35,121 bases of DNA from Comamonadaceae bacterium (GTDB lineage: Bacteria; Pseudomonadota; Gammaproteobacteria; Burkholderiales; Burkholderiaceae). Position numbers and translations under genes: made by a program. Below the pieces are notes generated by a model that had not been told where the DNA came from, searched no databases, and was given only the letters and a program-made list of their open reading frames with translations. This document shows positions 4,021 through 28,337 of the stretch, one piece after another (position 1 is the stretch's first letter; each line of letters opens with the position of its first letter). The stretch covers positions 1 to 35,121 of the forward strand of contig CANCGU010000003.1 of assembly GCA_947377705.1 (NCBI GenBank). Direction: 5' to 3'.

Positions 4021-4062
4021 ATCATAAAAGTCGAATTTCGCTTTGTATTTGACAAGTGTCAA
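4021..4062 (-). promoter_or_regulatory. class II FNR/Anr-type promoter of yqjDEK
   Basis: The palindrome TTGACAAGTGTCAA (4049-4062) fits TTGAY-N4-RTCAA perfectly. On the minus strand a TATGAT -10 hexamer occupies 4026-4021, giving a predicted start at about 4014. The palindrome centre (4055.5) then falls at exactly -41.5, the canonical class II position for FNR/CRP-family activators. The leader would be 26 nt and contain the AAGGA ribosome binding site of yqjD. What is seen is the sequence and spacing; that FNR itself binds is inference. NO-responsive Dnr/NnrR relatives recognise the same site type. Confidence 0.75.
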
Positions 4063-4113
4063 GCTAATGCGATTGCCTCGATGCCTTCAGTTTCGCTCGA
4101 TCAGTCGGGTCTT

Positions 4114-5295
4114 TTATTCTGGAAACAGGGGGAGGTTTTCATAACCGAATAAATATGGGGTCAGCCTCAAGTCGAGCAATAAACCCCCTTGGGCCGGTGG
4201 CTGGCAAAGTCGTTCGTAATCACTTGGGCTGAGCGTGCGAACCTTTTGCGCATCTCTGATGTGGTTGAAGACGCCGTGGCGCCATTGATAGACCTCGTTG
4301 ATTTTTTCTTTGAAGGTGTATGCGTTGTGATGGTCGTTGTAAAAGTCATCAAACTTTCCCCGGCCTAAATAGATGGCATTCGACCCCTCATAGCCAGTGT
4401 CTGCATAAGTGACCGGGTCTGAGTTTAAAAAATAGACCCAATCGCCCGGCACAAAGTGTTTTGGGGCAACGCCACGTTGAATCGCGAGCAGTTTGCCGGG
4501 TATCGGACGCTGTGTTGGGTCGTAGTTGGGTTCGAAATCCCATGTCTCGCTGGGTTCGATATTGAGTAACGGGTCTTGGTCATACAACAAACGTAAGCGA
4601 ATCAGCTGCGCTTTTTCAGGGGCGTTGCGCACGCGTTGGTAATAGTCGAGTACCCCATGTGCGTAGCTGAGCTTGCTGGCTGCATAGCAGCCGATGGCGT
4701 AATTTTTCGGGTTGATGAAGGCATCGAGCAGCGCATCGTCAATTTTGGCAAGGTTGCTTGGGGTGCCGTTTTTCCATTTTGAGGTGTCCCAACAAGCAGC
4801 GCCGCCATCTGGCCAAATCCATTCAATTTTTTCAACCCATGCCACCACGTTTTGTCGCACGCCAACGTGTTCGCGCAGCGCGTGGATACTGCAAGCGTCC
4901 CCTTTGAAGTGGGTCGTTCGGCCTGGATGAAGCAGGGATAGAAGAATTTCTTTTTTTGAAACGGTGCTAACTTTTTTAGGTTTGTTTTTCGGGCCTCGAA
5001 TCACCACGATTTCATTTCTTAAATGAAAGGGGGCATGGCGCGAAAGTGCCAAAGTGCTGGTGCCTGTGGTCTTGAGCGTGTAGGCCACACCGCCATCGGG
5101 CGTGTTGCTTTGTGACACCTGCCTTGGATCAATGCGCAGCTCTCGCAAATAGCGGTTCATTTCGGCAGGCAGTTTTTCTTGCGCACTGGCATTGCATGAG
5201 AAAACCAAGCCATCAAAGGACGTTTGTGCAAAAGCAGAGGGGCCGATGAGTAGCCCCCACAACAAAAGGATTCGGGTGAATGGGTTGACTTTCAT
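4114..5295 (-). CDS. exported Tgl-like (Bacillus spore-type) transglutaminase homologue
   Basis: A predicted signal peptide (MKVNPFTRILLLWGLLIGPS, cleavage after AFA) is followed by a 370-residue protein. Two blocks resemble Bacillus protein-glutamine gamma-glutamyltransferase Tgl. One is NYAIGCYAASKLSYAHGVL around Cys203, comparable to the Tgl block with the catalytic Cys. The other is FVPGDWVYFLNSDP, followed after a short gap by YEGSNAIYLGRGKF, comparable to the Tgl PGD-Y-NPD and QGEN blocks. From memory of Tgl, the Glu before the Cys and the Glu of GEN act with the Cys; here they are Gly202 and Ser305. Catalysis may therefore be altered or lost. The N-terminal 190 residues also resemble the Tgl layout only loosely. 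An upstream ATG at 5376 would bury the signal peptide, so 5295 is preferred. An FNR-type palindrome lies 38 bp upstream. Confidence 0.65.
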   Translation of the reverse strand: MKVNPFTRILLLWGLLIGPSAFAQTSFDGLVFSCNASAQEKLPAEMNRYLRELRIDPRQVSQSNTPDGGVAYTLKTTGTSTLALSRHAPFHLRNEIVVIRGPKNKPKKVSTVSKKEILLSLLHPGRTTHFKGDACSIHALREHVGVRQNVVAWVEKIEWIWPDGGAACWDTSKWKNGTPSNLAKIDDALLDAFINPKNYAIGCYAASKLSYAHGVLDYYQRVRNAPEKAQLIRLRLLYDQDPLLNIEPSETWDFEPNYDPTQRPIPGKLLAIQRGVAPKHFVPGDWVYFLNSDPVTYADTGYEGSNAIYLGRGKFDDFYNDHHNAYTFKEKINEVYQWRHGVFNHIRDAQKVRTLSPSDYERLCQPPAQGGLLLDLRLTPYLFGYENLPLFPE

Positions 5296-5332
5296 GAGGG
5301 ACCTATTTTTGTAGGGCACAGTGTCACCGCGA

Positions 5333-5346
5333 TTGACCCATGTCAA
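5333..5346. promoter_or_regulatory. FNR/Anr-type palindrome between the Tgl-like gene and the phosphorylase gene
   Basis: TTGACCCATGTCAA fits TTGAY-N4-RTCAA. For the leftward Tgl-like gene a centre at -41.5 predicts a start at 5298, with AAAAAT (4 of 6 to consensus) at the -10 position (5310-5305). The message would then be almost leaderless, which agrees with the lack of a Shine-Dalgarno sequence before the ATG at 5295. For the rightward gene at 5399 no good -10 lies at the matching distance. Binding and direction of action are inferred. Confidence 0.5.
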
Positions 5347-5398: not shown

Positions 5399-6997
5399 AT
5401 GACCACAGATTCTTTTGATGCATCACAGCCCGATGTGGCACTGACCCCTCATGGCCCCTCGTCGCAATTGGCGTTGCGGCGTGTGGCGATAGACACCTAT
5501 CACGAGAACGTTGTGTACTTGAACCGTGAATGTGCTCTTTACCGTGCAGAGGGCTTTCAAGCGCTTTCCAAAGTTGAAGTGCGTGCCAATGGCCAGAAAA
5601 TTTTGGCCACGCTCAATGTGGTTGACGATCCTGCGATTGTTGGGTGTGCAGAGGTGGGTTTGTCGGAGGACGCCTTTGCACAGATGGGTGTCGAAGATGG
5701 GCACAAAGCCACGGTGTCGCAAGCCGAGCCTCCGGAGTCGATGGAGGCGCTGTTTCGAAAAATCAATGGCGAACGCTTGAACAAAGATGACTTCTTGTCC
5801 ATCGTGCGCGATATTTCGCACCACCATTATTCAAAAATTGAATTGACGGCATTTGTCATTGCCACCAACCGTGGCGAGATGGACCGGGAGGAGGTCTACT
5901 TCTTAGCGGATGCCATGGTCGCCTGTGGCCGAAGACTAGATTGGCATTCGCCGTTGGTGGTGGACAAGCATTGCATTGGTGGTATTCCTGGCAACCGCAC
6001 ATCGATGTTGATCGTGCCGATTGTGGCGGCCCATGGCATGTTGTGTCCCAAGACATCGTCGCGTGCCATTACGTCGCCCGCAGGAACGGCAGACACGATG
6101 GCCGTGTTGGCGAATGTTGAACTGCCTTTTGACCAACTTTCGAAAATTGTGCACGACCACCGTGCTTGTTTGGCGTGGGGGGGTACGGCTGATTTGTCGC
6201 CCGCCGATGATGTGTTAATTTCAGTCGAGCGGCCACTCTCGCTTGATTCACCCGCGCAAATGGTGGCTTCCATTTTGTCTAAAAAAATTGCAGCCGGTTC
6301 TACGCATTTGGTGCTGGATATTCCGATCGGTCCTACCGCCAAGGTGCGCTCGATGCCAGAGGCTCAAAAGTTGCGCCAACTTTTTGAGTACGTGGCCTCG
6401 CGCATGAAGCTGTCCTTGGATGTGGTGATCACCGACGGGCGCCAGCCTATTGGCTTTGGTATTGGCCCTGTTTTGGAGGCCCGCGATGTGATGCGTGTGC
6501 TAGAGAACGACCCGCGTGGCCCCAATGACTTGCGGCAAAAGGCGCTCCGTTTGGCTGGGCGATTGATTGAATGCAACCCCGATGTGCGTGGTGGCGATGG
6601 CTTTGCGATTGCCCGTGATATTTTGGATTCCGGCCGCGCGTTAGCCAGTATGAACGCCATCATCAAGGCGCAAGGTGCGAGACCGTTTAACCACAACCAG
6701 CCTCAGCTCGGTGCGTTGACGTTTGACGTACTGGCTGCCGCATCAGGGGTGGTCACGGGCATCGATAACTTTCATATTGCCCGTGTTGCAAGATTTGCAG
6801 GCGCCCCCAAAGTAGAGAGTGCAGGTGTTGACTTGATGCGCAAACTTGGCGACGTGGTGAAGGCGGGTGATGTACTTTATCGGGTGCATGCAGAGTTCTC
6901 TTCTGACTTAGAGTTTGCAAGGCAAGCGAGTCTGAAATTAAGTGGCTACACCTTGGGCAATGCCAGTGATTTGCCTCATGTGTTCGTGGAGTTCTGA
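5399..6997 (+). CDS. deoA: AMP phosphorylase/thymidine phosphorylase, long archaeal-type form
   Basis: A 532-residue protein of the nucleoside phosphorylase family II. An N-terminal extension of about 90 residues precedes the helical and phosphate-binding core. Key blocks are [19 protein letters not shown] and [18 protein letters not shown], which are closer to archaeal AMP phosphorylase than to E. coli DeoA. A C-terminal PYNP-like domain starts near [20 protein letters not shown]. Archaeal members convert NMP and phosphate to base and ribose 1,5-bisphosphate; bacterial members of this subgroup are usually named thymidine phosphorylase without proof. Its TGA overlaps the ATG of the PRPP-synthetase homologue by one base, so the two proteins probably act in one route. 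Substrate (nucleoside or nucleotide) is uncertain. Confidence 0.85.
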
Positions 6998-7887
6998 TGT
7001 CTTCTGATGCCTGTTTGCTTTACTTTGAAGATGAGGCCAAATTTGCGCTAAAGCTTGCCCATGAGGCAGGCATAACGCCAGAACTTATTCATCGGCATCG
7101 ATTCCCTGATGGTGAGCTGAAGCTGCGTTTGCCTCCACAACTGCCCAGCCATGTGGTGGTGTTGCGCAGCTTGTCAGATGCCAATGAAAAGTTGGTGGAG
7201 CTTTTGTTGGTGGCACGCACGGCACGCCAACTAGGCGCGCAGCACTTAACCCTGGTTGCACCTTACTTGGCCTATATGCGGCAAGACATCGCTTTTCAAC
7301 CTGGGGAGGTGGTGAGTCAGCGTGTGGTGGGCCATTTCCTGGCTTCTTTGTTTGATGCCTTGATCACGGTTGATCCGCATTTGCATCGCATCACGACGCT
7401 GGATGAAGCCATTCCCCTCGCGCATGCCGTGGTGGTCAATGCCGCGCCATTGTTAGGCGACTTGATTGCACAGCATCATGTGCGTCCATTTCTCATTGGG
7501 CCGGATAGCGAATCAGCACAGTGGGTGAAAGCGGCTGCACAGCCGCATGGCTTTGACTTTGCTGTTTGCGAGAAAGTTAGGCATGGCGACCGGTCGGTGG
7601 ACATTCAATTGCCAGCTCTGGATGTCAAGGGGCGTGCTGTCGTGGTGTTGGACGACATGGCCAGCAGTGGTCGAACGTTGGCTCGCGCGGCGCAGCTTTT
7701 ATTGGCACTGGGAGCCGCTTCTGTGGATGTGGCGGTGACGCACGCGTTGTTCGCCGACGATGCGTTAGAGGTGATTGCAAAGGCTGGCGTGTTTCATATG
7801 TGGAGCACCGACTGTGTCTTGCACGCGACAAACTCTGTCAGTGTGAGTTCTTTAATAGCATTTGAATTAAACAAATTGAATACTTAA
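6997..7887 (+). CDS. prs: PRPP synthetase homologue (ribose-phosphate diphosphokinase family)
   Basis: A 296-residue protein with paired phosphoribosyltransferase-type domains. Motifs seen are RFPDGELKLRL (ATP-site FxDGE), YLAYMRQDIAFQPGEVVS, ITVDPHLHRI (metal/PRPP loop) and VVVLDDMASSGRTLARAA (PRPP-binding motif, canonical DD-xxSSG-T). The flexible loop region CEKVRHGDRSVDI is nearer to archaeal class III enzymes than to the bacterial housekeeping Prs. A second, housekeeping prs is therefore expected elsewhere in the genome. It is translationally coupled to the upstream phosphorylase (TGATG overlap). The coupling suggests recycling of ribose phosphate from nucleotides into PRPP, but that is inference. 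Confidence 0.85.
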   Translation: MSSDACLLYFEDEAKFALKLAHEAGITPELIHRHRFPDGELKLRLPPQLPSHVVVLRSLSDANEKLVELLLVARTARQLGAQHLTLVAPYLAYMRQDIAFQPGEVVSQRVVGHFLASLFDALITVDPHLHRITTLDEAIPLAHAVVVNAAPLLGDLIAQHHVRPFLIGPDSESAQWVKAAAQPHGFDFAVCEKVRHGDRSVDIQLPALDVKGRAVVVLDDMASSGRTLARAAQLLLALGAASVDVAVTHALFADDALEVIAKAGVFHMWSTDCVLHATNSVSVSSLIAFELNKLNT

Positions 7888-7996: not shown

Positions 7997-8722
7997 ATGG
8001 ACGCACGAACTCAAGCAAGCAAGATCAAGGTCGCTTGCTCTAACTGCAATCTGCGAGAGTTGTGCATGCCAGTCGATTTGAGTCCGGCAGATATGGATCG
8101 AATCGAAGAGGTGGTTTCATCACGACGCAAAGTGATGAGGGGCGACAATTTATTTCAGAATGGCGAAAAGTTCAAAGCGCTGTATGCCATACGTATTGGA
8201 TTTTTCAAGACAAGTTTTGCGTCACCCGACGGCCGAGAGCAGGTGACCGGGTTCCAAATGGCGGGTGAAATCATGGGGCTGGATGGCATTGTCAATGATC
8301 GTCATACCTGTGACGCGATTGCTTTAGAGGATGCCGAAGTTTGCGTGATGAACTTTGATCACATCGAAGCGCTGTCTCGCGAGATCACAGGTTTGCAGCG
8401 CCATGTGCACAAAATCATGAGCCGTGAAATTATGCAAGACCATGGTGTGATGCTGTTGCTGGGTAGCATGCGTGCGGAAGAACGTCTGGCCACTTTCTTG
8501 CTCAATTTAGGGCAGCGTTTGCACACCCGAGGCTTCTCGCCCTCGGAGTTGGTTCTGCGTATGACGCGTGAGGAAATCGGTAGCTATCTCGGTATGAAAA
8601 TCGAAACAGTTAGCCGAACTTTTTCAAAATTCGTCGATGACGAGATCGTCGAGGTCAAACAACGTCAAATCCGTATCTTGAATATGGAAGCGCTGAAGCA
8701 ATTGGTCAGCCCCCAAAATTGA
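7997..8722 (+). CDS. fnr: FNR-type oxygen-responsive Crp/Fnr transcriptional regulator
   Basis: A 241-residue protein from the ATG at 7997, preceded by GGTGA; an in-frame TTG at 7991 is too close to that site. Cys14, Cys17 and Cys23 (CSNCNLRELC) and Cys116 (EVCVMNF) reproduce the spacing of the four [4Fe-4S] ligands of E. coli FNR (C-x2-C-x5-C and 93 residues to the fourth). A cNMP-binding-like beta-roll, dimer helix and C-terminal helix-turn-helix follow. The recognition helix IETVSRTF carries the E-xx-SR triad (Glu203, Ser206, Arg207) that reads TTGAT half-sites. It is therefore very probably an oxygen sensor that binds TTGAT-N4-ATCAA. The roughly 110 bp upstream are AT-rich and show no FNR site. 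The gene is convergent with phaC, 11 bp apart. Confidence 0.93.
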   Translation: MDARTQASKIKVACSNCNLRELCMPVDLSPADMDRIEEVVSSRRKVMRGDNLFQNGEKFKALYAIRIGFFKTSFASPDGREQVTGFQMAGEIMGLDGIVNDRHTCDAIALEDAEVCVMNFDHIEALSREITGLQRHVHKIMSREIMQDHGVMLLLGSMRAEERLATFLLNLGQRLHTRGFSPSELVLRMTREEIGSYLGMKIETVSRTFSKFVDDEIVEVKQRQIRILNMEALKQLVSPQN

Positions 8723-8733
8723 TCGGTGTGATT

Positions 8734-10461
8734 TCAATCGTTGTAGCGAACCTGAACATAAGAACCAGGTGCATTTTGCAGCGAGGCGGCATTGGCAATT
8801 CCCTTGGCTTTCATGGGCGTGCTGCTTTTCTGTTTGAGCCAAGTGCACCAAGCAGGCCACCACGAACCCTCATGAATGGGCGTCTTGGTTTGCCATTCAT
8901 CTGAATCCACCCAGCCATGGCCTTTTGGCATGCTGTTGATTTGATAGCTTCGATGCGGATGACCAGGCTCCGAAATAATGCCGGCGTTATGCCCCCCAGC
9001 GGCCAGAATAAACGTAGTTTCGGTATCGGTAGATGCGTGAATTTTGTAGACTGATTTCCATGGCGAAATATGGTCGCGTGTGGTCCCCACCACCATCAAG
9101 GGTTGTTGAATGTCCATCAAGTCCACGGCTTTGCCATCGACGCGGTAATGACCTTCGCTGAGTGAGTTGTTCAGAAATAGCGAGTCTAAGTACTCTGTGT
9201 GCATCCGCGCGGGGAGGCGGGTGGTGTCTTTGTTCCAGCTCACCATGTCATTGCCAATCTCTTCGCGGCCCAATAAATAGCGTTGCGTGTTGCGAGACCA
9301 AATCAAATCACGCGAATTCAAAAATTGGAATGAACCCGCCATTTGTTTGCCTGACAGGTAGCCGGTTTTGGCCATCTCTTCACGCAGCGTCAGCAACTGG
9401 TCGTCATCGATGAAAACGCCCAGTTCGCCAGGCTCAGAAAAATCAGTTTGTGCCGCCAGCAAGGTGACGCTAGCCAAAGGCGATTTTTTGTTTTCTCTCC
9501 CTAAAACCGAAGCGGCAATTGACAAGAATGTGCCACCCAAGCAATAACCCATCGCATGCAAACGATGGGTTGTCGACAGAGATTGAACCGCCTTGATGGC
9601 ATCAAATAAACCCATCTGGATGTAATCATGCATGCCTAGATCGCGGTCTTTGCTGTCAGGGTTGCGCCAAGACACCATGAAGACGGTAAACCCTTCGCTG
9701 ACCAAATACTTCACCATGGAGTTGTGAGGGGACAAATCCAAGATGTAGTACTTCATGATGCAAGAGGGCACGATGAGCAGTGGCTCTGGATGCACTTTGC
9801 TGGTGGTGGGGGTGTATTGAATCAGTTCAATCAAATTGTTTTTGTAAACCACCTTGCCAGGTGTGATGGCGACATCTTTCCCCACTTCATAAGACGACGT
9901 GATCGCTTCGGGCGAATCGATCTTGAAGTGCTGTGCCGATATTTTTTTCAAATCATCCGCATATTGCTGCATGCCTTTGAGCAAGCTTTGGCCACCTGTT
10001 GCGGTGATGTTGTCCAAGACTTCGGGATTTGTGGCGGCCCAGTTGGACGGGGAGACCGCATCTAGCCACTGGCGCGTAAAAAACCGCATCAGATGCTCAT
10101 GGTGTTTGGACATGCCTGTCACATGGAGGGATTCTTTCCACCACGCTTCGTTGGCTTGGTAGTTGTCTTTGAGTAATTTGTAGGGCCAGTTCGACCATGC
10201 TTTGTTGTCGAACCGGACGTCTTTCGCGTATGGCGTGTTGTCGGGGTTGGTGTTGACTTGTTGAGAGACGGTGTCTTGGCAAAGCTTGGCTGCCAGCTGC
10301 ATCAACGCAATTTGCTTGGCCGGCGAAGCGCTCAGGTGCATCGCCCAGTCTGCATAGGCCAAGGCCAATGAAATGGGCGATAACCCCATGGCCAATTTGG
10401 AGAGTTGGGCATGAACCAAGTCGTCGAGCGACGGGGTGGGTGATGGGGTTGTATGTTTCAA
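8734..10461 (-). CDS. phaC: class I poly(3-hydroxyalkanoate) synthase PhaC
   Basis: A 575-residue class I PHA synthase. It polymerises (R)-3-hydroxyacyl-CoA, usually 3-hydroxybutyryl-CoA, into storage granules. The lipase-like box GYCLGG holds the catalytic Cys307; Asp463 (TTRDHISPW) and His491 (GGHNAG) complete the triad, at the usual spacing. The N-terminal PhaC_N domain is present (DNKAWSNWPYKLLKDNYQ). The start codon is TTG at 10461, with AAGGA five bases upstream; no ATG or GTG with a better site lies nearby. It is the second gene after a methyltransferase, with a gap of 12 bp, and probably shares its promoter with an FNR-type site. No phaA, phaB or phasin gene is adjacent. Confidence 0.94.
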   Translation of the reverse strand: MKHTTPSPTPSLDDLVHAQLSKLAMGLSPISLALAYADWAMHLSASPAKQIALMQLAAKLCQDTVSQQVNTNPDNTPYAKDVRFDNKAWSNWPYKLLKDNYQANEAWWKESLHVTGMSKHHEHLMRFFTRQWLDAVSPSNWAATNPEVLDNITATGGQSLLKGMQQYADDLKKISAQHFKIDSPEAITSSYEVGKDVAITPGKVVYKNNLIELIQYTPTTSKVHPEPLLIVPSCIMKYYILDLSPHNSMVKYLVSEGFTVFMVSWRNPDSKDRDLGMHDYIQMGLFDAIKAVQSLSTTHRLHAMGYCLGGTFLSIAASVLGRENKKSPLASVTLLAAQTDFSEPGELGVFIDDDQLLTLREEMAKTGYLSGKQMAGSFQFLNSRDLIWSRNTQRYLLGREEIGNDMVSWNKDTTRLPARMHTEYLDSLFLNNSLSEGHYRVDGKAVDLMDIQQPLMVVGTTRDHISPWKSVYKIHASTDTETTFILAAGGHNAGIISEPGHPHRSYQINSMPKGHGWVDSDEWQTKTPIHEGSWWPAWCTWLKQKSSTPMKAKGIANAASLQNAPGSYVQVRYND

Positions 10462-10473: not shown

Positions 10474-11313
10474 TTAATGAGGTAACCCGAGATGGACCAA
10501 TCCGTACATGGGGCCACCTGAGAAAGGGGTGAGCAGCAACTCAGCCACACAGCAAACCAAGCCGTATGCCTCCGAGACGCTGCGCTGTGACAAAACTTTG
10601 AGTCTGGGGTGTGCCGAGGCAATTTGCGTTGCATTGTGGCTGCCCCATGTAAATTCAGCACCTGTAGGGCCCACGCTCGGATGAAACGCAGCCTGCCCAA
10701 TCCCAATGGGGGACATGAAGTCGAAAATGATTTCAGAGCCCGGTGGCGCATGTTCCCCCACCTCAGCAAGTACCGCTTGTACTTGCTGAGGGGTGAGGTA
10801 CATCAATACGCCTTCGCAAATTAAAAAAACAGGTCGTGCGCGTGGACCTGTGGGGAGCTTCAAGTGTTTCCACCATCCAGGTTGCGTGATGTTGATGGTT
10901 TTGTTTTGACAATGCGGTTGAAGGAACTGAAAACAGCAATGGCGTAGGCGAATGACTTCAGCCAAATCTGCATCAATCCAGTGATTGCTCCCATTGTCGA
11001 ACCACTGAAAATAGCTGGAGAGCCCCGACCCCAAATTCACGCCTGAGCTTTTTGGGTGGCGCGCGAAGAAATGCAAGCCTACTGCCTTGATGACTTCTGT
11101 TCGCCACAGCACATTGAGCACGGTGGCCCAGTCGCTCAAGTACCTTTCCACATTGGTTTGCAGCGCCTCTAGCACGGGTGTAGCATATAAATCATGCGGA
11201 TCAAGCTGAGGCAACCATCGGGCACCCTGGGCGCGTGCTGCCAATGGAATCAACAAAGTGCTGGGCACGTAGCCGAGCGACTTGATGGAGGGATCCATGG
11301 ATGTGCGTTTCAT
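10474..11313 (-). CDS. SAM-dependent methyltransferase, leucine-carboxyl-methyltransferase/PPM1 (COG3315-like) family
   Basis: A 279-residue class I methyltransferase. The SAM-binding segment reads GVNLGSGLSSYFQWF, with the acidic WIDADLAEVIRLR after beta-2, and the downstream motif PVFLICEGVLMYLTPQQV is the hallmark of the LCM/PPM1 and TIGR00027/COG3315 families. Members O-methylate carboxyl groups or polyketides; the substrate here is unknown. It sits 12 bp upstream of phaC in one transcription unit, an unusual partner for a PHA synthase. The ATG at 11313 lacks a well-spaced ribosome binding site (AGGAGA lies about 20 bases upstream); ATG 11298 is an alternative. A perfect FNR box lies at 11368. 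Confidence 0.8.
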   Translation of the reverse strand: MKRTSMDPSIKSLGYVPSTLLIPLAARAQGARWLPQLDPHDLYATPVLEALQTNVERYLSDWATVLNVLWRTEVIKAVGLHFFARHPKSSGVNLGSGLSSYFQWFDNGSNHWIDADLAEVIRLRHCCFQFLQPHCQNKTINITQPGWWKHLKLPTGPRARPVFLICEGVLMYLTPQQVQAVLAEVGEHAPPGSEIIFDFMSPIGIGQAAFHPSVGPTGAEFTWGSHNATQIASAHPRLKVLSQRSVSEAYGLVCCVAELLLTPFSGGPMYGLVHLGLPH

Positions 11314-11367: not shown

Positions 11368-11381
11368 TTGATAAGTATCAA
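11368..11381. promoter_or_regulatory. perfect FNR box between methyltransferase-phaC and HD-GYP genes
   Basis: TTGATAAGTATCAA is an exact match to the FNR consensus TTGAT-N4-ATCAA. For the leftward methyltransferase-phaC operon a -41.5 position predicts a start at about 11333, with TAAAAA (4 of 6) at the -10 position (11345-11340). For the rightward HD-GYP gene (ATG 11409) activation at -41.5 would place the start inside the gene. For that gene the site is more likely to repress or have no effect. Binding by the FNR encoded at 7997 is inference. Confidence 0.75.
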
Positions 11382-19002: not shown

Positions 19003-19034
19003 AAAGTTCACTCCGGTTTTAAAAGACACATCGA

Positions 19035-20149: not shown

Positions 20150-20152
20150 TTC

Positions 20153-20746
20153 ATGACACAACACATCAACCTTTTGACTAGGCACCGCGCGCGCCAAAGC
20201 ATGGCTTGGTTCGCTACACGAGGTTTAACGGGATTGTTGGGCTTGTTCGTGCTTTGGGCATTGGTAACAGAAGTTGGTTTACAAAAACTTTCGCTTGCGA
20301 ACGACGATGTGCAGCAAACGATGCTGACACTTAAAGCAGAGTTAGAGGCTAAGCGGCGTGAAGCAGGTCTAGAGGATGCACAGGCTTTAGCCAAAGAGTC
20401 TGCAGGTTTGCGACGCAGAATGGAAGAGCACCTTGTGCTCATGCAACTTGTACAGAAAGGCGAGTTGGGTAGTTTGGCGGGGCACTCGCGTGTGATTCAA
20501 GTGTTGGCAAGCACACCGCAGCCAGGTGTCTGGCTTCAAGGTGTTGACATTACCAGTGCGGGGCAACACTTGAATGTTTTGGGTTATGCCAATTCGACCG
20601 CTGCGGTGATGCAGTATGCCGAGCAGTTGAATCGGTCATTTCAAACGATGAACATTGAGTTTTCTTCACTTGAAATGTCAACGGAAGATGTGTCTGCAAC
20701 GGCAACTTCGCCCAAGAGCAGTGCCATCAAATTTAGACTTCATTGA
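20153..20746 (+). CDS. PilN-like MSHA inner-membrane alignment protein
   Basis: A 197-residue bitopic protein with a short cytoplasmic N-terminus (MTQHINLLTRH; the INLL motif is the PilN signature that binds PilM), one transmembrane helix (GLTGLLGLFVLWALV), a periplasmic coiled coil (about 45-100) and a ferredoxin-like fold. PilN partners PilM/MshI and PilO/MshJ. In Vibrio the PilN-like portion is usually annotated as part of MshI or MshI2. It starts 3 bases after the mshI stop. Confidence 0.85.
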   Translation: MTQHINLLTRHRARQSMAWFATRGLTGLLGLFVLWALVTEVGLQKLSLANDDVQQTMLTLKAELEAKRREAGLEDAQALAKESAGLRRRMEEHLVLMQLVQKGELGSLAGHSRVIQVLASTPQPGVWLQGVDITSAGQHLNVLGYANSTAAVMQYAEQLNRSFQTMNIEFSSLEMSTEDVSATATSPKSSAIKFRLH

Positions 20747-20754
20747 AGGCGATT

Positions 20755-21423
20755 ATGAATTTACTTTTTTCATTCAGTCGAATTCGAGACAGATTTTACG
20801 TTTTGTCGATGCGAGAGCAGTTGTTGGTTGTGCTGGTGCTAGGTGTCGCTATCTATTTTGTATTTGAGAGTTTGGTGTTCGGGCCGCAAAGACTGCGTCA
20901 TATTGAATTGATGACATCGCGTGCGACAGCCGAGTCGCGCTTGGTGACATTGCGTTCTGAGATTTTGGTAGCAGCGCACAGCGATGGGGCCTTGAGAAAA
21001 GAACAAGATGAAAATAGCCAATTAAAAAAACAGTCCGCTATGTTGACTGCCGTGATCGACAGCATGCAAGGTCCCACCCCCCAAGTGGGAGACTTGGTGC
21101 GCCGCGTGCTCAAAGACTATCCACATGTTGCTTTAGATTCTTTGAAGACCTTACCAGTCAAAACTTTGATGGCTGCGCCACAAGCTAAGGCAGAGGGCAC
21201 CAAACCTAAGGGTGGACCTGCTAAAAATATCTACAAGCATGGGGTTGAGGTAGAGCTCCATGGCAACTACCTCGATTTGTTGTCTTATCTAAAAAATCTA
21301 GAAAACAGTTCTCAAAATGTTTTTTGGTCTGATGTGACATTGCGTACCGTGAAGTACCCAGAGACTTCGCTGCGTTTGACGATTTTCATTCTGAGTGATC
21401 AGCCAATTTTGAAAATTTCTTGA
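20755..21423 (+). CDS. mshJ: MSHA biogenesis protein MshJ (PilO-like)
   Basis: A 222-residue bitopic protein with a cytoplasmic segment (RIRDRFYVLSMREQ), a transmembrane helix (LLVVLVLGVAIYFVFESLV), a periplasmic coiled coil and a ferredoxin-like domain ending LRLTIFILS. ATG 20755 has AAGG six bases upstream; a TTG at 20743 overlapping the previous stop is less likely. It should heterodimerise with the PilN-like protein. A Lys/Pro-rich linker (about 140-155) separates the two periplasmic parts. Confidence 0.86.
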   Translation: MNLLFSFSRIRDRFYVLSMREQLLVVLVLGVAIYFVFESLVFGPQRLRHIELMTSRATAESRLVTLRSEILVAAHSDGALRKEQDENSQLKKQSAMLTAVIDSMQGPTPQVGDLVRRVLKDYPHVALDSLKTLPVKTLMAAPQAKAEGTKPKGGPAKNIYKHGVEVELHGNYLDLLSYLKNLENSSQNVFWSDVTLRTVKYPETSLRLTIFILSDQPILKIS

Positions 21424-21426
21424 CCT

Positions 21427-21840
21427 ATGAACTACGCTTTACGATCCATATTTTTGACGGCATGGCTGACTTGCGGGGTGAGTTCGGGTTGGGCTCAAAG
21501 CAGCTTGCATGACCCCATGCGTCCCCCGAGTGCCACATCGTTTGCCGCGCAGCTACCAACCTCGGATGCAGCGAATCCTGCGGGCGAAAAAATTCAAATG
21601 TTAATCATTGGTCGACAACGCGCTTTCGCCATGATTGATGGTTTGCTCGTCAAGCCTGGTGAGTCTGTGAACCAATGGCAGTTGGTCAGCATTGGCCACC
21701 AAAGCGTGGTGATGCGCAATGCATCTGTGACACAAGAAATTAGCATCAACCCATCTGTTGTTAAAACGATTCGTAGACCGAGTCAGCAAATCAGCAGCAA
21801 CGATTCAGTCGACAATAAAACCTCAAGGAACCGTCCATGA
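21427..21840 (+). CDS. mshK: MSHA biogenesis protein MshK (PilP-like role)
   Basis: A 137-residue exported protein with a signal peptide (MNYALRSIFLTAWLTCGVSSGWA), the segment HDPMRPP near the mature N-terminus, which is typical of MshK/PilP-like pilotin partners, and a small beta domain (IQMLIIGRQRAFAMIDGLLV...GESVNQWQL) like GspC/PilP homology regions. It probably links the inner-membrane complex to the MshL secretin. Its stop overlaps the mshL start (ATGA). Confidence 0.85.
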   Translation: MNYALRSIFLTAWLTCGVSSGWAQSSLHDPMRPPSATSFAAQLPTSDAANPAGEKIQMLIIGRQRAFAMIDGLLVKPGESVNQWQLVSIGHQSVVMRNASVTQEISINPSVVKTIRRPSQQISSNDSVDNKTSRNRP

Positions 21841-23705
21841 AATGGAATACTCTTGCCCTCATCGCTCCTTTGGCGTTGACAACCGCGTGCTCATCGATGT
21901 ATCCAACCCCCGATCTTTCAACGCAAGATCGTGTCACGCGTGAGTTGGCGCAAGCCGCTTCCAATAAGTCGGGTGTGCCTCATTCTGTGATGCCTCCTGC
22001 TGTGTTGAACGAGTTGCTACTGCCATCGCTCAACAGTTTGGTCCGTCAGGCGCCATCGCGTGCCAAGGAGCAGCACTTTGACTTGGTCGTGAACGATGCG
22101 CCGATCGCCCAAGTGTTATCGGGTCTGGTGGCAGGTACTGAGTACAGCATCATGCTCAAGCCCGTGAGTGCGCAGTCTGCCGCTGCCGGTGTTGACGTTT
22201 TGGAAACACGGGTGTCTTTGAACTTAAAAAACATCACGCTGTTTCAAGCGCTCGATGCGCTGCGGGATGTGTATGGCTACGACTACACGTTAGATAAGCA
22301 GCGAATTTTGGTGCAACCCGCTCAATTGCAAACCCAACTCTATTATGTGAATTACATCTTGGGTCAACGTCGTGGTGTGAGCGATTTGCAGGTCATTGGG
22401 GGTGCCTCTGTGGGCCACTCCTCTAGCTCGTCGTCGTCAACGGGTGCAACATCCACGACTTCCAGCTACGCTTCGGTTCAGGCCACAGGGTTGAGCACCA
22501 CCGTCAAGTCTGACATTTGGGGCGAGGCGGAAGATGCCCTGCGCACCGTTTTAGGTTGCAATATTCCAAAAGCTTCCGCGACTGTGGCGACTTCGAGAGC
22601 CATCGCATCCAGCCAAGGCAATGCTTCGCGTGCGGATGTGACACATCCAAGCGATGCCCCTTTGGGTGAGCGCCTGCGCGGGTCGGACGGGTGTGTGCAA
22701 GGGCGAGCCCTGTCTATCAATCAGATGAGTGGCACGATTTTGGCCCGTGGCATGCCCTCCGAGTTACGTACCGTCGAGAAATTATTGAAGTCAATGCAGC
22801 TGAGTATTTCTCGTCAAGTCATCATCGAGTCCAAGATCATTGATGTCGAGTTAAACAAAGATTCTCAACAGGGTATCAACTGGGGTTCATTTCCGGATGG
22901 CTTACATCGTTTCTCAGTAGGTGCCAATGCCAGCGGGATAGGGACGAACCAAGCTGGGCAATTTGGTGGTGCAGTGACAGCGAGCAGTTTGCAAACTTTG
23001 CTAGGTAAAAATCAAGCGCCTGCCAATGCGCTTTCGAGTGCATCAGGCATTGCAGTGCAAACGCGTAATTTTTCTGCCTTAATTAACTTTTTGGAATCTC
23101 AGGGCCGAGTGCATGTGCTGTCTAGCCCACGTATTGCCACTTTGAATAATCAAAAAGCCGTGATCAAGGTTGGTAGTGAAGAGCCTTTTGTGACCAGTAT
23201 CACGGGCGGGAGCACCACTGTGCCCACTGTTGGTGCGCCGGTTAATGTGCCGCCTACGCTTTCATACCAGCCGTTCTTTTCTGGCATCTCTTTAGATGTG
23301 ACGCCACAAATTGATTCTGAAGACAACATCACTTTGCATGTGCATTCGATGGTGAATAACGTGGTTGAAAAAGCCAAACTCGCATTGCTAGATGCATCTG
23401 CCGAAATGGTGCCATTTGCTGTAAATACCATCAATGAAACAGACAGCGTTGTCAAAGCTCGCGATGGCCAAGTGATTGTCATTGGTGGCCTGATGACCGA
23501 GAAAACTTCTGATGTGCGCAGTGGTGTACCGGGGGCGCGTGATATTCCTGGCGTTGGTGCTTTCTTTAACTGGGGTGCACAAACATCGGTCAAACGTGAG
23601 TTGGTCATTTTGTTGAAATCCACAGTGGTGAAAGATGACAGTGCTTGGTCTGATGACATCAGTGCCACTGGTGATCGCATCGGCGCGATGAGCGCACCAC
23701 GTTAA
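21837..23705 (+). CDS. mshL: MSHA outer-membrane secretin MshL
   Basis: A 622-residue lipoprotein secretin. The lipobox LTTAC places the lipidated Cys at about residue 18. An STN-like domain follows (FDLVVNDAPIAQVLSGLV), then a Ser-rich linker (about 196-215) and a Cys-bounded insert, an N1-type domain, and the C-terminal secretin domain with VHVLSSPRIATLNNQKAVIKVG and DGQVIVIGGLMTEKT. It forms the outer-membrane pore for the pilus. It overlaps mshK by 4 bases and precedes mshM by 18. Confidence 0.94.
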   Translation: MKWNTLALIAPLALTTACSSMYPTPDLSTQDRVTRELAQAASNKSGVPHSVMPPAVLNELLLPSLNSLVRQAPSRAKEQHFDLVVNDAPIAQVLSGLVAGTEYSIMLKPVSAQSAAAGVDVLETRVSLNLKNITLFQALDALRDVYGYDYTLDKQRILVQPAQLQTQLYYVNYILGQRRGVSDLQVIGGASVGHSSSSSSSTGATSTTSSYASVQATGLSTTVKSDIWGEAEDALRTVLGCNIPKASATVATSRAIASSQGNASRADVTHPSDAPLGERLRGSDGCVQGRALSINQMSGTILARGMPSELRTVEKLLKSMQLSISRQVIIESKIIDVELNKDSQQGINWGSFPDGLHRFSVGANASGIGTNQAGQFGGAVTASSLQTLLGKNQAPANALSSASGIAVQTRNFSALINFLESQGRVHVLSSPRIATLNNQKAVIKVGSEEPFVTSITGGSTTVPTVGAPVNVPPTLSYQPFFSGISLDVTPQIDSEDNITLHVHSMVNNVVEKAKLALLDASAEMVPFAVNTINETDSVVKARDGQVIVIGGLMTEKTSDVRSGVPGARDIPGVGAFFNWGAQTSVKRELVILLKSTVVKDDSAWSDDISATGDRIGAMSAPR

Positions 23706-23723
23706 TCCGAAAGAAAAATCCTG

Positions 23724-24629
23724 ATGTACCTTGAGCACTTTGGACTGAAAGAGTTTCCATTCAGCATCACACCTGACACAGAATTCTTTTTTTCATCAGG
23801 GGTTTCTCAGGAGGCGTTAAACACCTTGTTGATTGCCGCGAGAACGGGTGAGGGTTTTATCAAAATCACGGGCGAAGTGGGAACAGGCAAGTCCATGTTG
23901 TGTCGCAAGTTGATGGCGAGTTTGTCATCCGACTTTAAGGTGGCTTACATTCCCAACCCGTATCTCGATCCAGATTCTTTGTTCATGGAGCTGGCGGCGG
24001 AACTTGATGTCGAGTTCGATACCGAAACCATTGCCAAACACCAAGTGCTGCGCGCGATCAAAGAGCGTTTATTGAGCCTGAACAATGCGGGCAAGCGCGT
24101 CGTGGTTTGTTTGGATGAGGCGCAAGCCATGCCGATTGAGACGCTAGAAGCGTTGCGTTTGTTGAGTAACCTTGAAACAGAGAAGCGAAAGCTGTTGCAA
24201 GTCATTATTTTTGGGCAGCCTGAGCTAGAGGACAAGCTCAATCACCCCTCTATTCGCCAGCTCAAACAGCGAATCGCATTTGAATACTGCTTAGCGCCTA
24301 TGGGTCGTGATGAGATCGACTATTACATCCAGCATCGGCTGTCGATTGCAGGTCATCAGGGAACCCGCATGTTCACACGGCCTGCGTTGTGGTTGCTCAA
24401 GTTGCGTACCCATTGCGTGCCTCGCTTGGTCAACATCGTGGCGCACAAGTCATTGTTGAGTGCCTATGGGCGTGGACGTAAAAATGTGACATTTTGGGAT
24501 GTGAATGCGGCGGTCAACGACACAGCGTCTCTGAGTGAATTCGATTCAAAATTCCGCCTTCTTTTTTTGTTAGTAATGTTGTTTGGCAGCGTGTGTTTGT
24601 TGCTGATTGATAAAGGATATTTCCGATGA
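23724..24629 (+). CDS. mshM: MSHA biogenesis AAA ATPase MshM (ExeA/GspA-like)
   Basis: A 301-residue protein starting MYLEHFGLKEFPFSITPD, the typical ExeA/MshM opening. Walker A is GEVGTGKSMLCRKL and Walker B is VVVCLDEAQAMP, with sensor region LLQVIIFGQPELEDKL. One C-terminal transmembrane helix (LLFLLVMLFGSVCLLLI) anchors it. ExeA-type ATPases help the secretin pass or assemble across peptidoglycan (family knowledge). Its stop overlaps the mshN start (ATGA). Confidence 0.92.
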   Translation: MYLEHFGLKEFPFSITPDTEFFFSSGVSQEALNTLLIAARTGEGFIKITGEVGTGKSMLCRKLMASLSSDFKVAYIPNPYLDPDSLFMELAAELDVEFDTETIAKHQVLRAIKERLLSLNNAGKRVVVCLDEAQAMPIETLEALRLLSNLETEKRKLLQVIIFGQPELEDKLNHPSIRQLKQRIAFEYCLAPMGRDEIDYYIQHRLSIAGHQGTRMFTRPALWLLKLRTHCVPRLVNIVAHKSLLSAYGRGRKNVTFWDVNAAVNDTASLSEFDSKFRLLFLLVMLFGSVCLLLIDKGYFR

Positions 24630-25615
24630 GTCTCATCAACCAAATGCTCAAGGATATTGACAAACGCCATGCGTCGTCGTCCATGCCAGCCGCGAATCAT
24701 GACTTACAAGGTGTGATGAAGTCCGAGTTTCCGTTGCGCACGGTGTTGATGGGGGGCGGGCTTGTGGCTGCGTTGGTCGTCGCGACTGTGTTGGTGTTCA
24801 ACGGCAAGCGTGTACAAGGACCGACTGTCGTCACTGTACCGGCGGTCGTCGCCAACGTACCTGTCATCGTGGCGAACGAGCCAACACCTGTGGCGTCAAG
24901 TGCGACGGTGCGTTTGGCCAGTGCTGCAGCGGAGGTCAAGACAGAGGCGCCACTCAAGGTGGTGCCTCCTCCTGTGTTTGTGACCGTCCCCAAACCTGTG
25001 GTTGAAACGGTTGCTAAAAGCGGTTCTTTCACACGCGTGCTCACAGCCGAGCAGCGTGCAGAAAACTTATACCGTGATGCGATTGAGCAAATTCGACAAG
25101 GCCGCATGTCCGACGCGCAAGGCGTGCTCAAGCGGGCCTTGTCTGAATATCCCCTGCATCACGCCTCGCGTCAGTTGCTGGCTCGTTCCTTGGTCGAAGC
25201 AGGGCAAGCAGACGATGCACAGACCTTGCTGCGTGATGGACTCACCCTTGTGCCACAGCGCTTAGATTTCTTCATGGCCTTGGCGCATGTGAGTTTGAGC
25301 AGCAATGACTTGGATGGCGCGATCAAAGTGATGGAAAGTGGTTTGCCGGTCGCTGCAGACAATGCTGAATTTCACGCATTCCTTGCCACCTTGCTTCAAC
25401 GCAATAATCGACACGATGAAGCGATTCAGCACTACGTGACGGCTTTGCGTAAAGCACCGGACACCGCCAACTGGTTGCTCGGGTTGGGTATTTCATTGCA
25501 AGAAAAGAAAGACAGAAGCAGTGCAGTTGAGGCGTATCAACGTGCCATAGATTTGGGATTGCCCCCTTCATTGATGCAATTTGCGCAAGACAGACTCCGC
25601 CAGCTCAACAAATAA
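24626..25615 (+). CDS. mshN: MSHA biogenesis TPR protein MshN
   Basis: A 329-residue protein beginning MSLINQMLKDIDKRHA, the conserved MshN/GspB-like opening, then one transmembrane helix (VLMGGGLVAALVVATVLVF), a Val/Pro-rich periplasmic linker (about 70-130) and four to five TPR-like helices (for example RQGRMSDAQGVLKRALSEYP and NNRHDEAIQHYVTALRKAP). It pairs with MshM as GspB pairs with GspA. It ends 19 bp before the PilT-like ATPase gene. Confidence 0.88.
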   Translation: MSLINQMLKDIDKRHASSSMPAANHDLQGVMKSEFPLRTVLMGGGLVAALVVATVLVFNGKRVQGPTVVTVPAVVANVPVIVANEPTPVASSATVRLASAAAEVKTEAPLKVVPPPVFVTVPKPVVETVAKSGSFTRVLTAEQRAENLYRDAIEQIRQGRMSDAQGVLKRALSEYPLHHASRQLLARSLVEAGQADDAQTLLRDGLTLVPQRLDFFMALAHVSLSSNDLDGAIKVMESGLPVAADNAEFHAFLATLLQRNNRHDEAIQHYVTALRKAPDTANWLLGLGISLQEKKDRSSAVEAYQRAIDLGLPPSLMQFAQDRLRQLNK

Positions 25616-25634
25616 CTTCTGTAGAGCGGCACAC

Positions 25635-26684
25635 ATGAATATTCAAGACATGCTACGTCAATGTGTTGAGCGTCGCGCTTCTGATTTGCATCTCTCATCG
25701 GGCGTGCCGCCTATCTTGCGAATTGATGGTGATTTGACGCGTTTGTCAGATGTCGCGCTGAGCCATGAAGATATCTACCAAGCCGTGTTGGGTCTCATGA
25801 ATCCAATTCAGCAAGAGCATTTCAAGAAAACGATGGAGTGCGATTTTTCCTTTGAGATTCCCCAGGTTTCACGCTTTCGGGTCAATGCGTTTCATCAGTC
25901 GCGTGGCGTATCTGTCGCGTTTCGAGGTATTCCCAGTCGCATGCCCCATTTGGATGAGCTGAACGCACCGCCCATCTTTTCTGAATTTATGCGAAGTCCG
26001 CGTGGCTTGGTTTTGGTGACAGGCCCAACAGGTTCAGGGAAGTCCACCACGCTGGCAGCCATGATTGACTTACTCAATCAAAATGCGTCTAAGCATATTT
26101 TGACCATTGAAGACCCGATTGAGTTTGTGCATACGCCCAATCAATGCTTGGTTAACCAGCGGGAGGTGGGTGGGCATACTTTGAGTTTTGACAATGCCTT
26201 GCGCGCAGCGATGCGGGAGGATCCCAACGTGATTTTGGTGGGCGAGATGCGGGATTTGGAAACCATTCGGTTGGCCATGACTGCTGCTGAAACAGGCCAT
26301 TTGGTGTTGGGTACTTTGCACACCTCGGGTGCCGCCAAAACCATTGACCGCATCATTGACGTCTTTCCAGCCGAAGAGAAAGAGATGGTTCGCAGCATGC
26401 TGTCCGAGTCACTCAATGCGGTGATTTCACAGGTACTTTGCAAGCGCAAGGACGGCAGAGGGCGCATTGCCGCTTATGAAATCATGGTGGGAACTTCTGG
26501 CATTCGTAACCTGATTCGCGAAGGCAAGGTGGCGCAAATGTATTCAGCCATCCAAACAGGGAGTTCTGCTGGTATGCAGACCTTGGATCAAAGCCTCTCT
26601 ATTCTTGTGAACGAAGGTTTGATTGACGCTTCTCAAGCGCGGACCAAAGCCAAATACCCGGAGAATTTTGGGACTGTCAATTAA
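25635..26684 (+). CDS. pilT: PilT-family pilus retraction ATPase
   Basis: A 349-residue ATPase starting at ATG 25635 (MNIQDMLRQCVERRASDLHL); an earlier in-frame codon at 25581 lies inside mshN. Motifs: PPILRIDGDL, Walker A GPTGSGKSTTLAAMI, Asp box (IEDPIEFVH), Walker B VILVGEMRDLETIRLA, His box GHLVLGTLHTSG, and a C-terminal GIRNLIREGK like the AIRNLIRE motif needed for PilT retraction. Vibrio MSHA uses the chromosomal PilT encoded elsewhere, so a PilT-like gene as the last gene of the msh operon points to a dedicated retraction motor. Its stop overlaps the stop of the convergent diguanylate cyclase gene. Confidence 0.88.
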   Translation: MNIQDMLRQCVERRASDLHLSSGVPPILRIDGDLTRLSDVALSHEDIYQAVLGLMNPIQQEHFKKTMECDFSFEIPQVSRFRVNAFHQSRGVSVAFRGIPSRMPHLDELNAPPIFSEFMRSPRGLVLVTGPTGSGKSTTLAAMIDLLNQNASKHILTIEDPIEFVHTPNQCLVNQREVGGHTLSFDNALRAAMREDPNVILVGEMRDLETIRLAMTAAETGHLVLGTLHTSGAAKTIDRIIDVFPAEEKEMVRSMLSESLNAVISQVLCKRKDGRGRIAAYEIMVGTSGIRNLIREGKVAQMYSAIQTGSSAGMQTLDQSLSILVNEGLIDASQARTKAKYPENFGTVN

Positions 26685-28207
26685 GCATTGAACATGTACT
26701 CAACATGTCGATTTCGACCCTGAGCCTTGGCTTGAAGCATAGCCTTGTCAGCTTCGTCGACCAAATCTTCTTCGAACAGGTTCGTGTTCAAAACCGACGT
26801 CACATGACCGATGCTGACGGTCAGTTGTGGGTGATCACCGTTGGTGCATTGAAGTTGGATCTCTCGAACGGCGGCCAGGATGTCGCCAGCAATTTTTTGC
26901 GCTGCGTTTCGATTCGTCTTGGGTAGGACGACCACAAACTCTTCGCCCCCCCATCGACAAACAAAATCGAGAGGCCTGTGAATACAGGACGAGATTGTTT
27001 CAGCGACGGCTTTTAATGCAACGTCGCCACTTTCGTGGCCATAGTTTTCGTTGAAATATCGGAAGTAATCAATGTCGATGAATAGCACGCTGATTGGCGT
27101 TTGTGATCGTTTTGATTCACGCAATAGTGCAGGCAATAGCTCATCCAGTGCCCGTCTGTTGTGCAGCTGAGTGAGTGGATCGTGCATCGATGATATTTGC
27201 GCCGCAGTCAATTTTTTTGACATTGCGTGCAAGTAAGAAAAGATCGCCGTAGAAAATAACAAGCCTAAAAACGCATACAACATCAAATATTTATTGCCCG
27301 CTAGAAATTCATATCTGACTCTTGAGAGGGGAAACGTGGCGTAGGTGACAAGCTCGTAAGTGGGAGATTTGGCAGAGTCCATCAGCTGGTCTTCGTTCCC
27401 TATCGCAGGGCTTGTCATGTTTGAATTATTGTGAGCCAACGCAGCCAAAAATTCTTTAGACGGTGCATCTGCGGTGTTTGGGGGGGGGAATACAAAAGAT
27501 GGCTCACTATCTTCAATGTGCGCCATCAAGCGTTCAAAGTGACTCGGGTCTGCATAGTGCATCAGCTTGTTGGCAATGTCTGCTTCTAGAATTTGCTGAA
27601 CCAAGACACCAGCAAATTCTCCGTTTTTTCCACGAACAGGAACAGACAGATGAAACACCCATTTGCCTGTTGTTCTCGCGAAAACAAGCGGGCCAACGGT
27701 TTGATGGATATCGGGGTTGTCGCGAGGTTGGTAGAAATACAAACGATCAGAAAAATCAAGGTCTGTATTTGCATGCCCGCTGCTCTGGGCATACAGCTTG
27801 CCATTTTTATCTACGAAAAATAACAGACCAAACACATCTGTTTTGTTAAACGCTTGGAATTTGGCATAACTTGTTTTCAGAATTTGGCTCGCGAGAGCTT
27901 GATTCATTTGATCTGACTGAATCGCTTTAGAGAATGCCGTCTGTGTGCTGTCCAGCGATTTCGCTGCACTCGCAAGTGCCGACTCAATTAAGAAGTTCGC
28001 CATGTTCGCGCTGCGCACCAAACGCGAATGCGCAATTTCTACTCGAACAGTCCAGTTTTGGTAGAGCGCATACCACGTCCCGACGGAGATGGTCACAAAG
28101 ATAAAGATGAAAAGGCACGCAATGGTTTTGGAGATCTTGCTGCTGAACTGCGTCGTGGTCAGCGTGTTGTGATGTTTTTCGTTAATTTGTTGCAGATCAG
28201 CTGTCAT
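26681..28207 (-). CDS. membrane diguanylate cyclase (GGDEF) with extracytoplasmic Cache-like sensor
   Basis: A 508-residue protein with transmembrane helices at about 28-48 and 308-326 flanking a 260-residue periplasmic region. That region has the dCache-like motif FSDRLYFYQPRDNP. The cytoplasmic GGDEF domain has DPLTQLHNRRALDELL, DIDYFRYFNENYGHESGD and an active GGEEF (420-424). The inhibitory I-site RPLD (411-414) lies five residues before it, so product feedback is expected. It makes c-di-GMP from two GTP. AAAGGG lies 8 bases before the ATG. It is tail-to-tail with the pilus operon and has an FNR-type palindrome 117 bp upstream. Confidence 0.92.
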   Translation of the reverse strand: MTADLQQINEKHHNTLTTTQFSSKISKTIACLFIFIFVTISVGTWYALYQNWTVRVEIAHSRLVRSANMANFLIESALASAAKSLDSTQTAFSKAIQSDQMNQALASQILKTSYAKFQAFNKTDVFGLLFFVDKNGKLYAQSSGHANTDLDFSDRLYFYQPRDNPDIHQTVGPLVFARTTGKWVFHLSVPVRGKNGEFAGVLVQQILEADIANKLMHYADPSHFERLMAHIEDSEPSFVFPPPNTADAPSKEFLAALAHNNSNMTSPAIGNEDQLMDSAKSPTYELVTYATFPLSRVRYEFLAGNKYLMLYAFLGLLFSTAIFSYLHAMSKKLTAAQISSMHDPLTQLHNRRALDELLPALLRESKRSQTPISVLFIDIDYFRYFNENYGHESGDVALKAVAETISSCIHRPLDFVCRWGGEEFVVVLPKTNRNAAQKIAGDILAAVREIQLQCTNGDHPQLTVSIGHVTSVLNTNLFEEDLVDEADKAMLQAKAQGRNRHVEYMFNA

Positions 28208-28323
28208 AGCCAGTCCCTTTCTTCGCTTAAAGAGTCCTAGCGGCGGCGCTGGCTAATTTGGATGGCTGATTCTTGAGGCTACGAGGCATAGGATAATTTT
28301 TCCATCGGGGGCCCTTTTAAATT

Positions 28324-28337
28324 TTGATAAATGTCAA
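28324..28337. promoter_or_regulatory. FNR/Anr-type palindrome upstream of diguanylate cyclase
   Basis: TTGATAAATGTCAA fits TTGAY-N4-RTCAA. On the minus strand a -41.5 position predicts a start at about 28289, with AAAAAT (4 of 6) at the -10 position (28301-28296) or AATTAT three bases further on. The leader to the ATG at 28207 would be about 80 nt. Binding is inferred. Confidence 0.55.

Follow-up and report, generated by a model that had tools for sequence, protein, structure and literature searches.

Probable FNR operators around an fnr paralogue at a Comamonadaceae locus with polyhydroxybutyrate, MSHA-type pilus and c-di-GMP genes

The first 35,121 nucleotides of contig CANCGU010000003.1 (GenBank assembly GCA_947377705.1, from a Comamonadaceae bacterium, a beta-proteobacterium probably of fresh water), here called the window, contain an fnr gene and five palindromes of the FNR type, TTGAY-N4-RTCAA. 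They lie among genes for polyhydroxybutyrate (PHB) synthesis, a mannose-sensitive hemagglutinin (MSHA)-type pilus and the enzymes of cyclic di-GMP (c-di-GMP) turnover. Are these palindromes working operators, and do they make up a local low-oxygen regulon around the fnr gene, as an original prediction from the same DNA proposed? Comparison with relatives shows that the group of sites around the fnr paralogue is real and specific to its lineage, and that the sites are probable FNR operators. An oxygen-to-attachment circuit at the locus is plausible.

Five intergenic palindromes and their counterparts in close relatives

Exact matches to the pattern begin at 4049, 5333, 11368, 19082 and 28324, and the whole window has no sixth. 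In 100 dinucleotide shuffles the pattern occurred 0.18 times on average (SD 0.41, maximum 2), and none of the 100 reached five. When up to one mismatch was allowed, matches at 19839, 25527, 26623 and 34546 were added. The total of nine compares with 5 for a reversed control pattern, and therefore the excess resides in the perfect sites.

The five sites are all intergenic. In our own gene list, intergenic DNA makes up 1,784 bases (5.1%) of the window. The chance that five random matches would all fall there is p ~3e-7, and about 0.009 palindromes are expected in the window's intergenic DNA from base composition. Site 5333 counts as intergenic only if translation of the neighboring Tgl-like gene begins with the ATG near 5295, ahead of a stretch resembling a signal peptide, rather than with the GTG at 5376. 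Thus, all five are exact TTGAT/C-N4-A/GTCAA palindromes upstream of a gene, the form of an FNR operator. The positions, the intergenic placement and the coding share of about 95% in the original prediction were all accurate.

A PhaC scan found two Comamonadaceae metagenome-assembled genomes with much of the locus, G001 (locus L001, 88%) and G002 (L002, 79%), and four more distant loci. The original prediction had proposed looking for the sites in related Comamonadaceae, and all five recur in G001 and G002. We found 10 of 10 possible counterparts, nine of them strict and one, in G002, with one mismatch. Since yqjD and deoA share one counterpart site in G001, the physical sites number nine, eight of which are strict. 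The yqjD counterpart is strict in both genomes and is shared with deoA in G001 and with fnr in G002. The deoA counterpart of G001 is also strict (TTGACGCATGTCAA). The deoA gene of G002 is on a separate contig (C7, L112) and keeps the window's 14-mer 34 nt before its start. At the methyltransferase-phaC site, the 14-mer is identical in G001, and G002 has a strict site before phaC; no methyltransferase gene was found beside phaC in G002. The mshA/mshI site is strict in G001 and is the one with a mismatch in G002. The cyclase site is strict in G002, where it is shared with a divergent gene for a GGDEF-EAL response regulator. Its counterpart in G001 was identified by its flanks, and an RNase II-type gene (L066:15328-16815) separates it from the cyclase gene; the window and G002 have no RNase II-type gene there. 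A one-mismatch match at L066:15202, near the G001 cyclase gene, is inside the reading frame of that gene and was not counted. C and T interchange at position 5 between orthologous promoters, and the inner bases are partly conserved in the two relatives.

The region between yqjD and deoA differs among the genomes. G001 has a single FNR site there, and the window has the Tgl-like gene in between, with a site on either side. The inner bases of window sites 4049 and 5333 resemble those of the separate yqjD and deoA sites of G002.

Promoter spacing and target genes

At FNR class II promoters, 22 nt separate the site from the -10 element downstream, and class I sites lie at least one helical turn further upstream. 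The activating distance between site and -10 element is about 22 or 42 nt. We found that a 22-nt gap before yqjD is kept in 3 of 3 genomes and is followed by TATGAT in the window and by TATATT in G001 and G002. A hexamer with two mismatches to TATAAT stands 21 to 23 nt from the methyltransferase/phaC site in all nine site-bearing loci (the window, G001, G002, G003, G004, G015, G022, G026 and G030; G004 has two sites, and the spacing fits at one). As a control, 1 to 29% of nearby positions per locus scored as well, with a mean of 13%. At mshA, 41 nt precede AATAAT in all three genomes. At mshI, the gap is 61 nt, followed by TAGACT in the window and G001 and by TAAACT in G002. The spacing suits FNR activation at yqjD, methyltransferase-phaC and mshA, and this part of the predicted target set is supported; no fixed spacing was found for deoA or the cyclase gene.

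Other targets were considered and set aside. Site 11368 ends 27 nt before the ATG of the HD-GYP gene in the window and 33 nt before it in G001. FNR bound so near the start could therefore repress this gene but would hardly activate it, and we rejected HD-GYP as an activated target. The Tgl-like gene, one of the linked targets in the original prediction, was rejected as the main target of 5333. The site stays with deoA in the window, G001 and G002 and thus belongs with deoA-prs-fnr; the Tgl-like gene was not found at that place in G001 or G002. A class II start from 5333 would fall at about the Tgl-like ATG. The VOC/Rieske operon was rejected as the target of 28324, because a better promoter-like sequence, belonging to the VOC gene itself, was seen by eye about 200 bp from the site; G001 carries a different gene where the window has this operon. 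A sigma-54 promoter for mshA was also rejected, because G001 and G002 do not retain the GG/GC-like stretch that was noticed by eye in the window.

The genes and sites are listed in Table 1. The Pfam scan took in 20 of the 35 window proteins of our gene list. The MSHA gene names are inferred from translations and gene order, and their Pfam basis consists only of pilin N_methyl domains; the match of mshI to PilM_2 falls below the cut-off. The translation of the 11409 gene contains HD and GYP motifs. The N terminus of the MshE-like ATPase resembles the c-di-GMP-binding motif of MshE. The original prediction did not name the deoA-like and prs-like genes (5399-7887), the HD-GYP gene (11409) or the VOC gene (28626).

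Table 1. Putative FNR sites and neighboring genes in the window
Feature	Position	Strand	Basis or remark
YqjK-like protein	2986..3279	-	Pfam
YqjE-like protein (Phage_holin_3_6)	3266..3664	-	Pfam
YqjD-like protein (DUF883)	3677..3988	-	Pfam
FNR site before yqjD-yqjE-yqjK	4049..4062	-	TTGACACTTGTCAA toward yqjD; 22 nt to TATGAT (class II spacing)
Tgl-like secreted protein	4114..5295	-	Pfam TGL, 3.9e-9; likely start near 5295, GTG-started open reading frame extends to 5376
FNR site before deoA-like/prs-like/fnr	5333..5346	+	TTGACCCATGTCAA
Thymidine/AMP-phosphorylase family protein (deoA-like)	5399..6997	+	Pfam
Ribose-phosphate pyrophosphokinase-like protein (prs-like)	6997..7887	+	Pfam
FNR protein	7997..8722	+	Open reading frame also open from TTG 7991; four Cys ligands, E-TV-SR
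PHB synthase PhaC	8734..10461	-	Subfamily with recurrent upstream FNR site
LCM-type methyltransferase	10474..11313	-	Pfam; directly upstream of phaC
FNR site between methyltransferase-phaC and HD-GYP	11368..11381	-	22 nt to TAAAAA toward phaC
HD-GYP c-di-GMP phosphodiesterase-like protein	11409..12671	+	Pfam HD_5
MSHA-type pilus genes mshG, mshE, mshQ-like and minor pilins	12702..18630	-	Translations
Major MSHA-type pilin (mshA-like, name inferred)	18649..19029	-	Pfam N_methyl
FNR site between mshA and mshI	19082..19095	.	41 nt to AATAAT (mshA); 61 nt to TAGACT (mshI)
mshI-mshN-like genes and PilT/PilU-type ATPase	19202..26684	+	Names inferred from translations, gene order
Diguanylate cyclase-like protein with GGEEF	26681..28207	-	Pfam; dCache match just below cut-off
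FNR site before diguanylate cyclase gene	28324..28337	-	

FNR paralogues and the reach of the sites

The predicted fnr gene at 7997, with all Fe-S ligands and the E-xx-SR helix, was confirmed by alignment with Aliivibrio fischeri FNR (E 3e-55). Residues C14, C17, C23 and C116, counted from ATG 7997, align with Cys of that protein. They form the N-terminal C-x2-C-x5-C and the one central Cys of a four-Cys FNR. The recognition helix ETVSR aligns with ETISR of A. fischeri FNR and is kept in G001_C56 and G002_C56.

G001 encodes two proteins close to the window FNR, at 89% and 74% identity, and G002 encodes three. The second FNR of G001 adjoins hemN and carries the same E-x-x-S-R motif, and ETVSR is present also in G001_C127. 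In a tree with seven of nine inner branches open, the window FNR and its neighbors in G001 and G002 form a clade of their own (100/99), apart from the fnr-hemN copy. By comparison with these relatives, the local FNR is a paralogue. Because both types share the recognition motif, the five sites are not assignable to one FNR by sequence.

We counted strict sites across the two relatives; the original prediction had proposed a genome scan for enrichment at the locus. There are 36 strict sites in G001 (control pattern, 5) and 47 in G002 (control, 3), of which 18 and 24 are intergenic. Genes were called with our own codon-usage caller, with one recount: L001:1722, called coding, was recounted as intergenic, being flanked by the aligned starts of HD-GYP (1688) and the methyltransferase (1790). 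A site on G001 C15 that the caller listed twice entered the count as one, and a few of the sites are at the edge of a contig or a gene. Of the 36 strict sites of G001 (2.2 Mb), 4 fall within the 26.7 kb of the locus (post hoc p 9e-4), and of the 47 of G002 (2.3 Mb), 3 fall within its 19.1 kb (p 0.007). At the densities of the relatives, 0.57 to 0.72 sites would be expected in the window, which has five (p 3e-4 to 9e-4). The sites are concentrated at the locus when set against the genomes of the relatives, but the region of the second fnr in G002 is at least as dense. Other intergenic sites of G001 adjoin typical FNR targets, namely, COX1, a cation ATPase, Usp, fnr/hemN, DksA and cytochrome c genes, which is the make-up of an ordinary FNR regulon. 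The survey of flanking genes scanned 20 proteins and covers part of the 42 intergenic sites of G001 and G002.

The strongest alternative is that the sites are real FNR operators of a global regulon run by a second FNR of the fnr-hemN type. The local paralogue would then be incidental or modulating, and the grouping would reflect ordinary gene-order clustering. We give this reading an even chance. It is consistent with the several close FNR proteins of G001 and G002, with the ETVSR of G001_C127 and with the separate clade of the local trio. In addition, three strict intergenic sites lie within 8.5 kb around the second fnr of G002 (C37), a higher density than at the studied locus; C37 is a candidate equivalent of the hemN- and COX1-bearing loci of G001. 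Herbaspirillum also has three Fnr orthologues (PMC5934665). However, the local paralogue is kept beside the sites in the window, G001 and G002, and it lies downstream of one site in both gene orders. The term "local regulon" in the original prediction was too strong, given the second FNR of G001, its 18 intergenic strict sites genome-wide and the dense C37 region.

We also searched wider relatives. Across 399 family genomes, we took the best 29 deoA loci of a longer match list, besides G001 (77 to 82% identity), and found one-mismatch sites within 300 bp at 5 of these 29 (control, 0). For mshI, one-mismatch sites precede 2 of 40 distant homologues with upstream sequence (1/28 and 1/12). These homologues have 24 to 35% identity, and some may lie outside MSHA loci; L173, which has no upstream sequence, was dropped. 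The picture at phaC is different. In the PhaC subfamily, defined by at least 40% identity, 8 of 11 loci have a strict upstream site, versus 1 of the 21 other PhaC loci fetched (Fisher p 1e-4). G031 was excluded because its contig begins within the gene. The site precedes a methyltransferase gene in G001 and G003; G013 and G050 have no upstream site, and G011 has one with a mismatch. Only the phaC site recurs beyond the close relatives; it is widespread, and the other sites have been seen in this lineage alone. A subfamily in which an FNR operator and its promoter spacing recur in several distant genomes may aid the prediction of low-oxygen PHB synthesis from sequence.

Several observations weigh against a functional group of operators at this locus. 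G001 and G002 are not independent of the window, and the p values are post hoc. Coding DNA holds 18 of the 36 strict sites in G001 and 23 of the 47 in G002, and some intergenic sites face MTHFR, TctC, LysR and GntR genes, which have no known FNR link. A pattern match alone is therefore weak. The equal spacing at mshA and mshI is weak evidence, because the gap between these genes aligns almost without indels. At deoA, a common TAGGCT lies 40, 33 and 22 nt from the site in the window, G001 and G002, and therefore there is no fixed promoter spacing. No common -10 spacing element was found for the cyclase gene in these three genomes. Strict sites are present within 400 bp at none of the best 29 deoA loci of the longer match list and before none of the 40 mshI homologues (0/28 and 0/12). 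On these counts, family-wide conservation of the deoA and mshI sites was rejected. At PhaC loci, one-mismatch sites (8 of 29, versus 3 of 29 for the reversed control) stand out from the control less clearly than strict sites do (5 of 30, versus 0 of 30).

On balance, the five palindromes are likely to be working FNR-family operators under the low-oxygen control proposed below. Another CRP/FNR-family protein, such as a FixK-, DNR- or NnrR-like regulator, might instead bind them by reading a similar TTGAC-N4-GTCAA. Several sites do have TTGAC/GTCAA half-sites, and G001 encodes further CRP/FNR relatives of 24 to 26% identity. We consider this unlikely, since a four-ligand FNR is encoded within the locus and position 5 varies between C and T in orthologous promoters. 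That the palindromes are functionless products of chance and AT-rich gaps is highly improbable: the pattern is short, and the half or so of genome-wide matches in the relatives that are coding are probably non-functional, but the shuffles, the small intergenic expectation and the reappearance of the sites in both relatives, where some inner bases are conserved, argue against it.

Proposed circuit and known systems

We propose that at low oxygen [4Fe-4S] FNR would bind the five palindromes, be it the local paralogue, the fnr-hemN type or a mix of the two. Centered near -41.5, a class II position, it would activate yqjDEK and methyltransferase-phaC; mshA would be activated from near -60.5, a class I position. 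It would also feed the deoA-prs-fnr unit and hence its own paralogue, and may act on the diguanylate cyclase gene. It would block the HD-GYP phosphodiesterase gene or leave it alone. As oxygen falls, the circuit as a whole would yield storage polymer, MSHA pilin and a higher level of c-di-GMP, the ligand of MshE-type ATPases.

In a stricter form of this scheme, the locus would be a self-contained switch. A dedicated, self-fed FNR paralogue would turn the cyclase up, turn HD-GYP down through a promoter operator and turn on MSHA pilin and PHB. We regard this form as doubtful. If it is true, falling oxygen would drive cells to attach and to store carbon. Within a Comamonadaceae lineage, the locus offers a testable case of oxygen sensing wired in cis to a pilus, to enzymes of c-di-GMP synthesis and breakdown and to carbon storage.

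Parts of this scheme are already published: phaC under FNR, pilus and signaling genes under Anr, and a clustered low-oxygen locus. In Herbaspirillum seropedicae, with three Fnr orthologues, RNA-seq and ChIP-seq identified phaC1, dksA-phaC2-fabI, phbA2 and a phasin gene as direct targets, with phaC1 and dksA-phaC2-fabI under direct Fnr1 control (PMC5934665). The likeness of Fnr1/Fnr3 to our locus is this beta-proteobacterial control of phaC. However, by term count, pili, pilus and c-di-GMP are absent from the main text of that study, unlike from the window locus. Pseudomonas extremaustralis carries Anr boxes upstream of phaBAC, of pilG (a type IV pilus gene) and of morA, and its anr mutant shows poor attachment and aggregation (PMC3797731). 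This system differs in that pilG and morA, not an MSHA pilin, are the targets, and the available part of the paper does not describe them as one locus around the regulator.

The lxa locus of Burkholderia cenocepacia is a low-oxygen-induced chromosomal cluster that includes phbB and is required for anoxic persistence, and its deletion reduces attachment to host cells (PMC6127331). It differs in having 50 genes, six of them for universal stress proteins (Usp), and in its proposed regulator, BCAM0049, which lies outside BCAM0275-0323. Unlike the window locus, it has no named MSHA genes in the available text. None of the 20 scanned window proteins (of 35) is a Usp; the comparison with lxa, with its universal stress proteins, chaperone and phosphotransacetylase, was by gene names alone. 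FnrL of Rhodobacter capsulatus directly regulates 42 genes, including c-di-GMP signaling genes (PMC7232146). That organism is an alpha-proteobacterium, and flagella and gas vesicles rather than MSHA pili are involved, within the text available. MshE is a c-di-GMP-binding pilus ATPase, and FNR control is unmentioned in the available part of that account (PMC5013675). Likewise, as far as their available text goes, neither PMC11980369 nor PMC11227560 shows MSHA or a cyclase to be under FNR control.

The original prediction knew of no described regulon that joins these functions in one locus. Several of the couplings have been published, in Herbaspirillum, Pseudomonas and Burkholderia. For FNR control of MSHA, or for a joint regulon of FNR, PHB, pili and c-di-GMP, we found no precedent in the open-access literature, within the text available. 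What looks new is an MSHA pilin and c-di-GMP enzymes beside an fnr paralogue.

Three further observations were made nearby. The region 28626-34970 is an aromatic-degradation-like cluster with genes for a glyoxalase-fold protein, a Rieske oxygenase, a reductase, an SDR protein, an aldehyde dehydrogenase and an aspartate-dehydrogenase-like protein; except for the glyoxalase-fold protein, these names are inferred from translations. In G002, a strict site at L068:2760 lies between a hemerythrin-like gene, also named from its translation, and a divergent gene. At 2029-2979, the window encodes a secreted-looking 316-aa protein with no Pfam match, and its relative in G001 (84%) directly adjoins the counterpart of site 28324.

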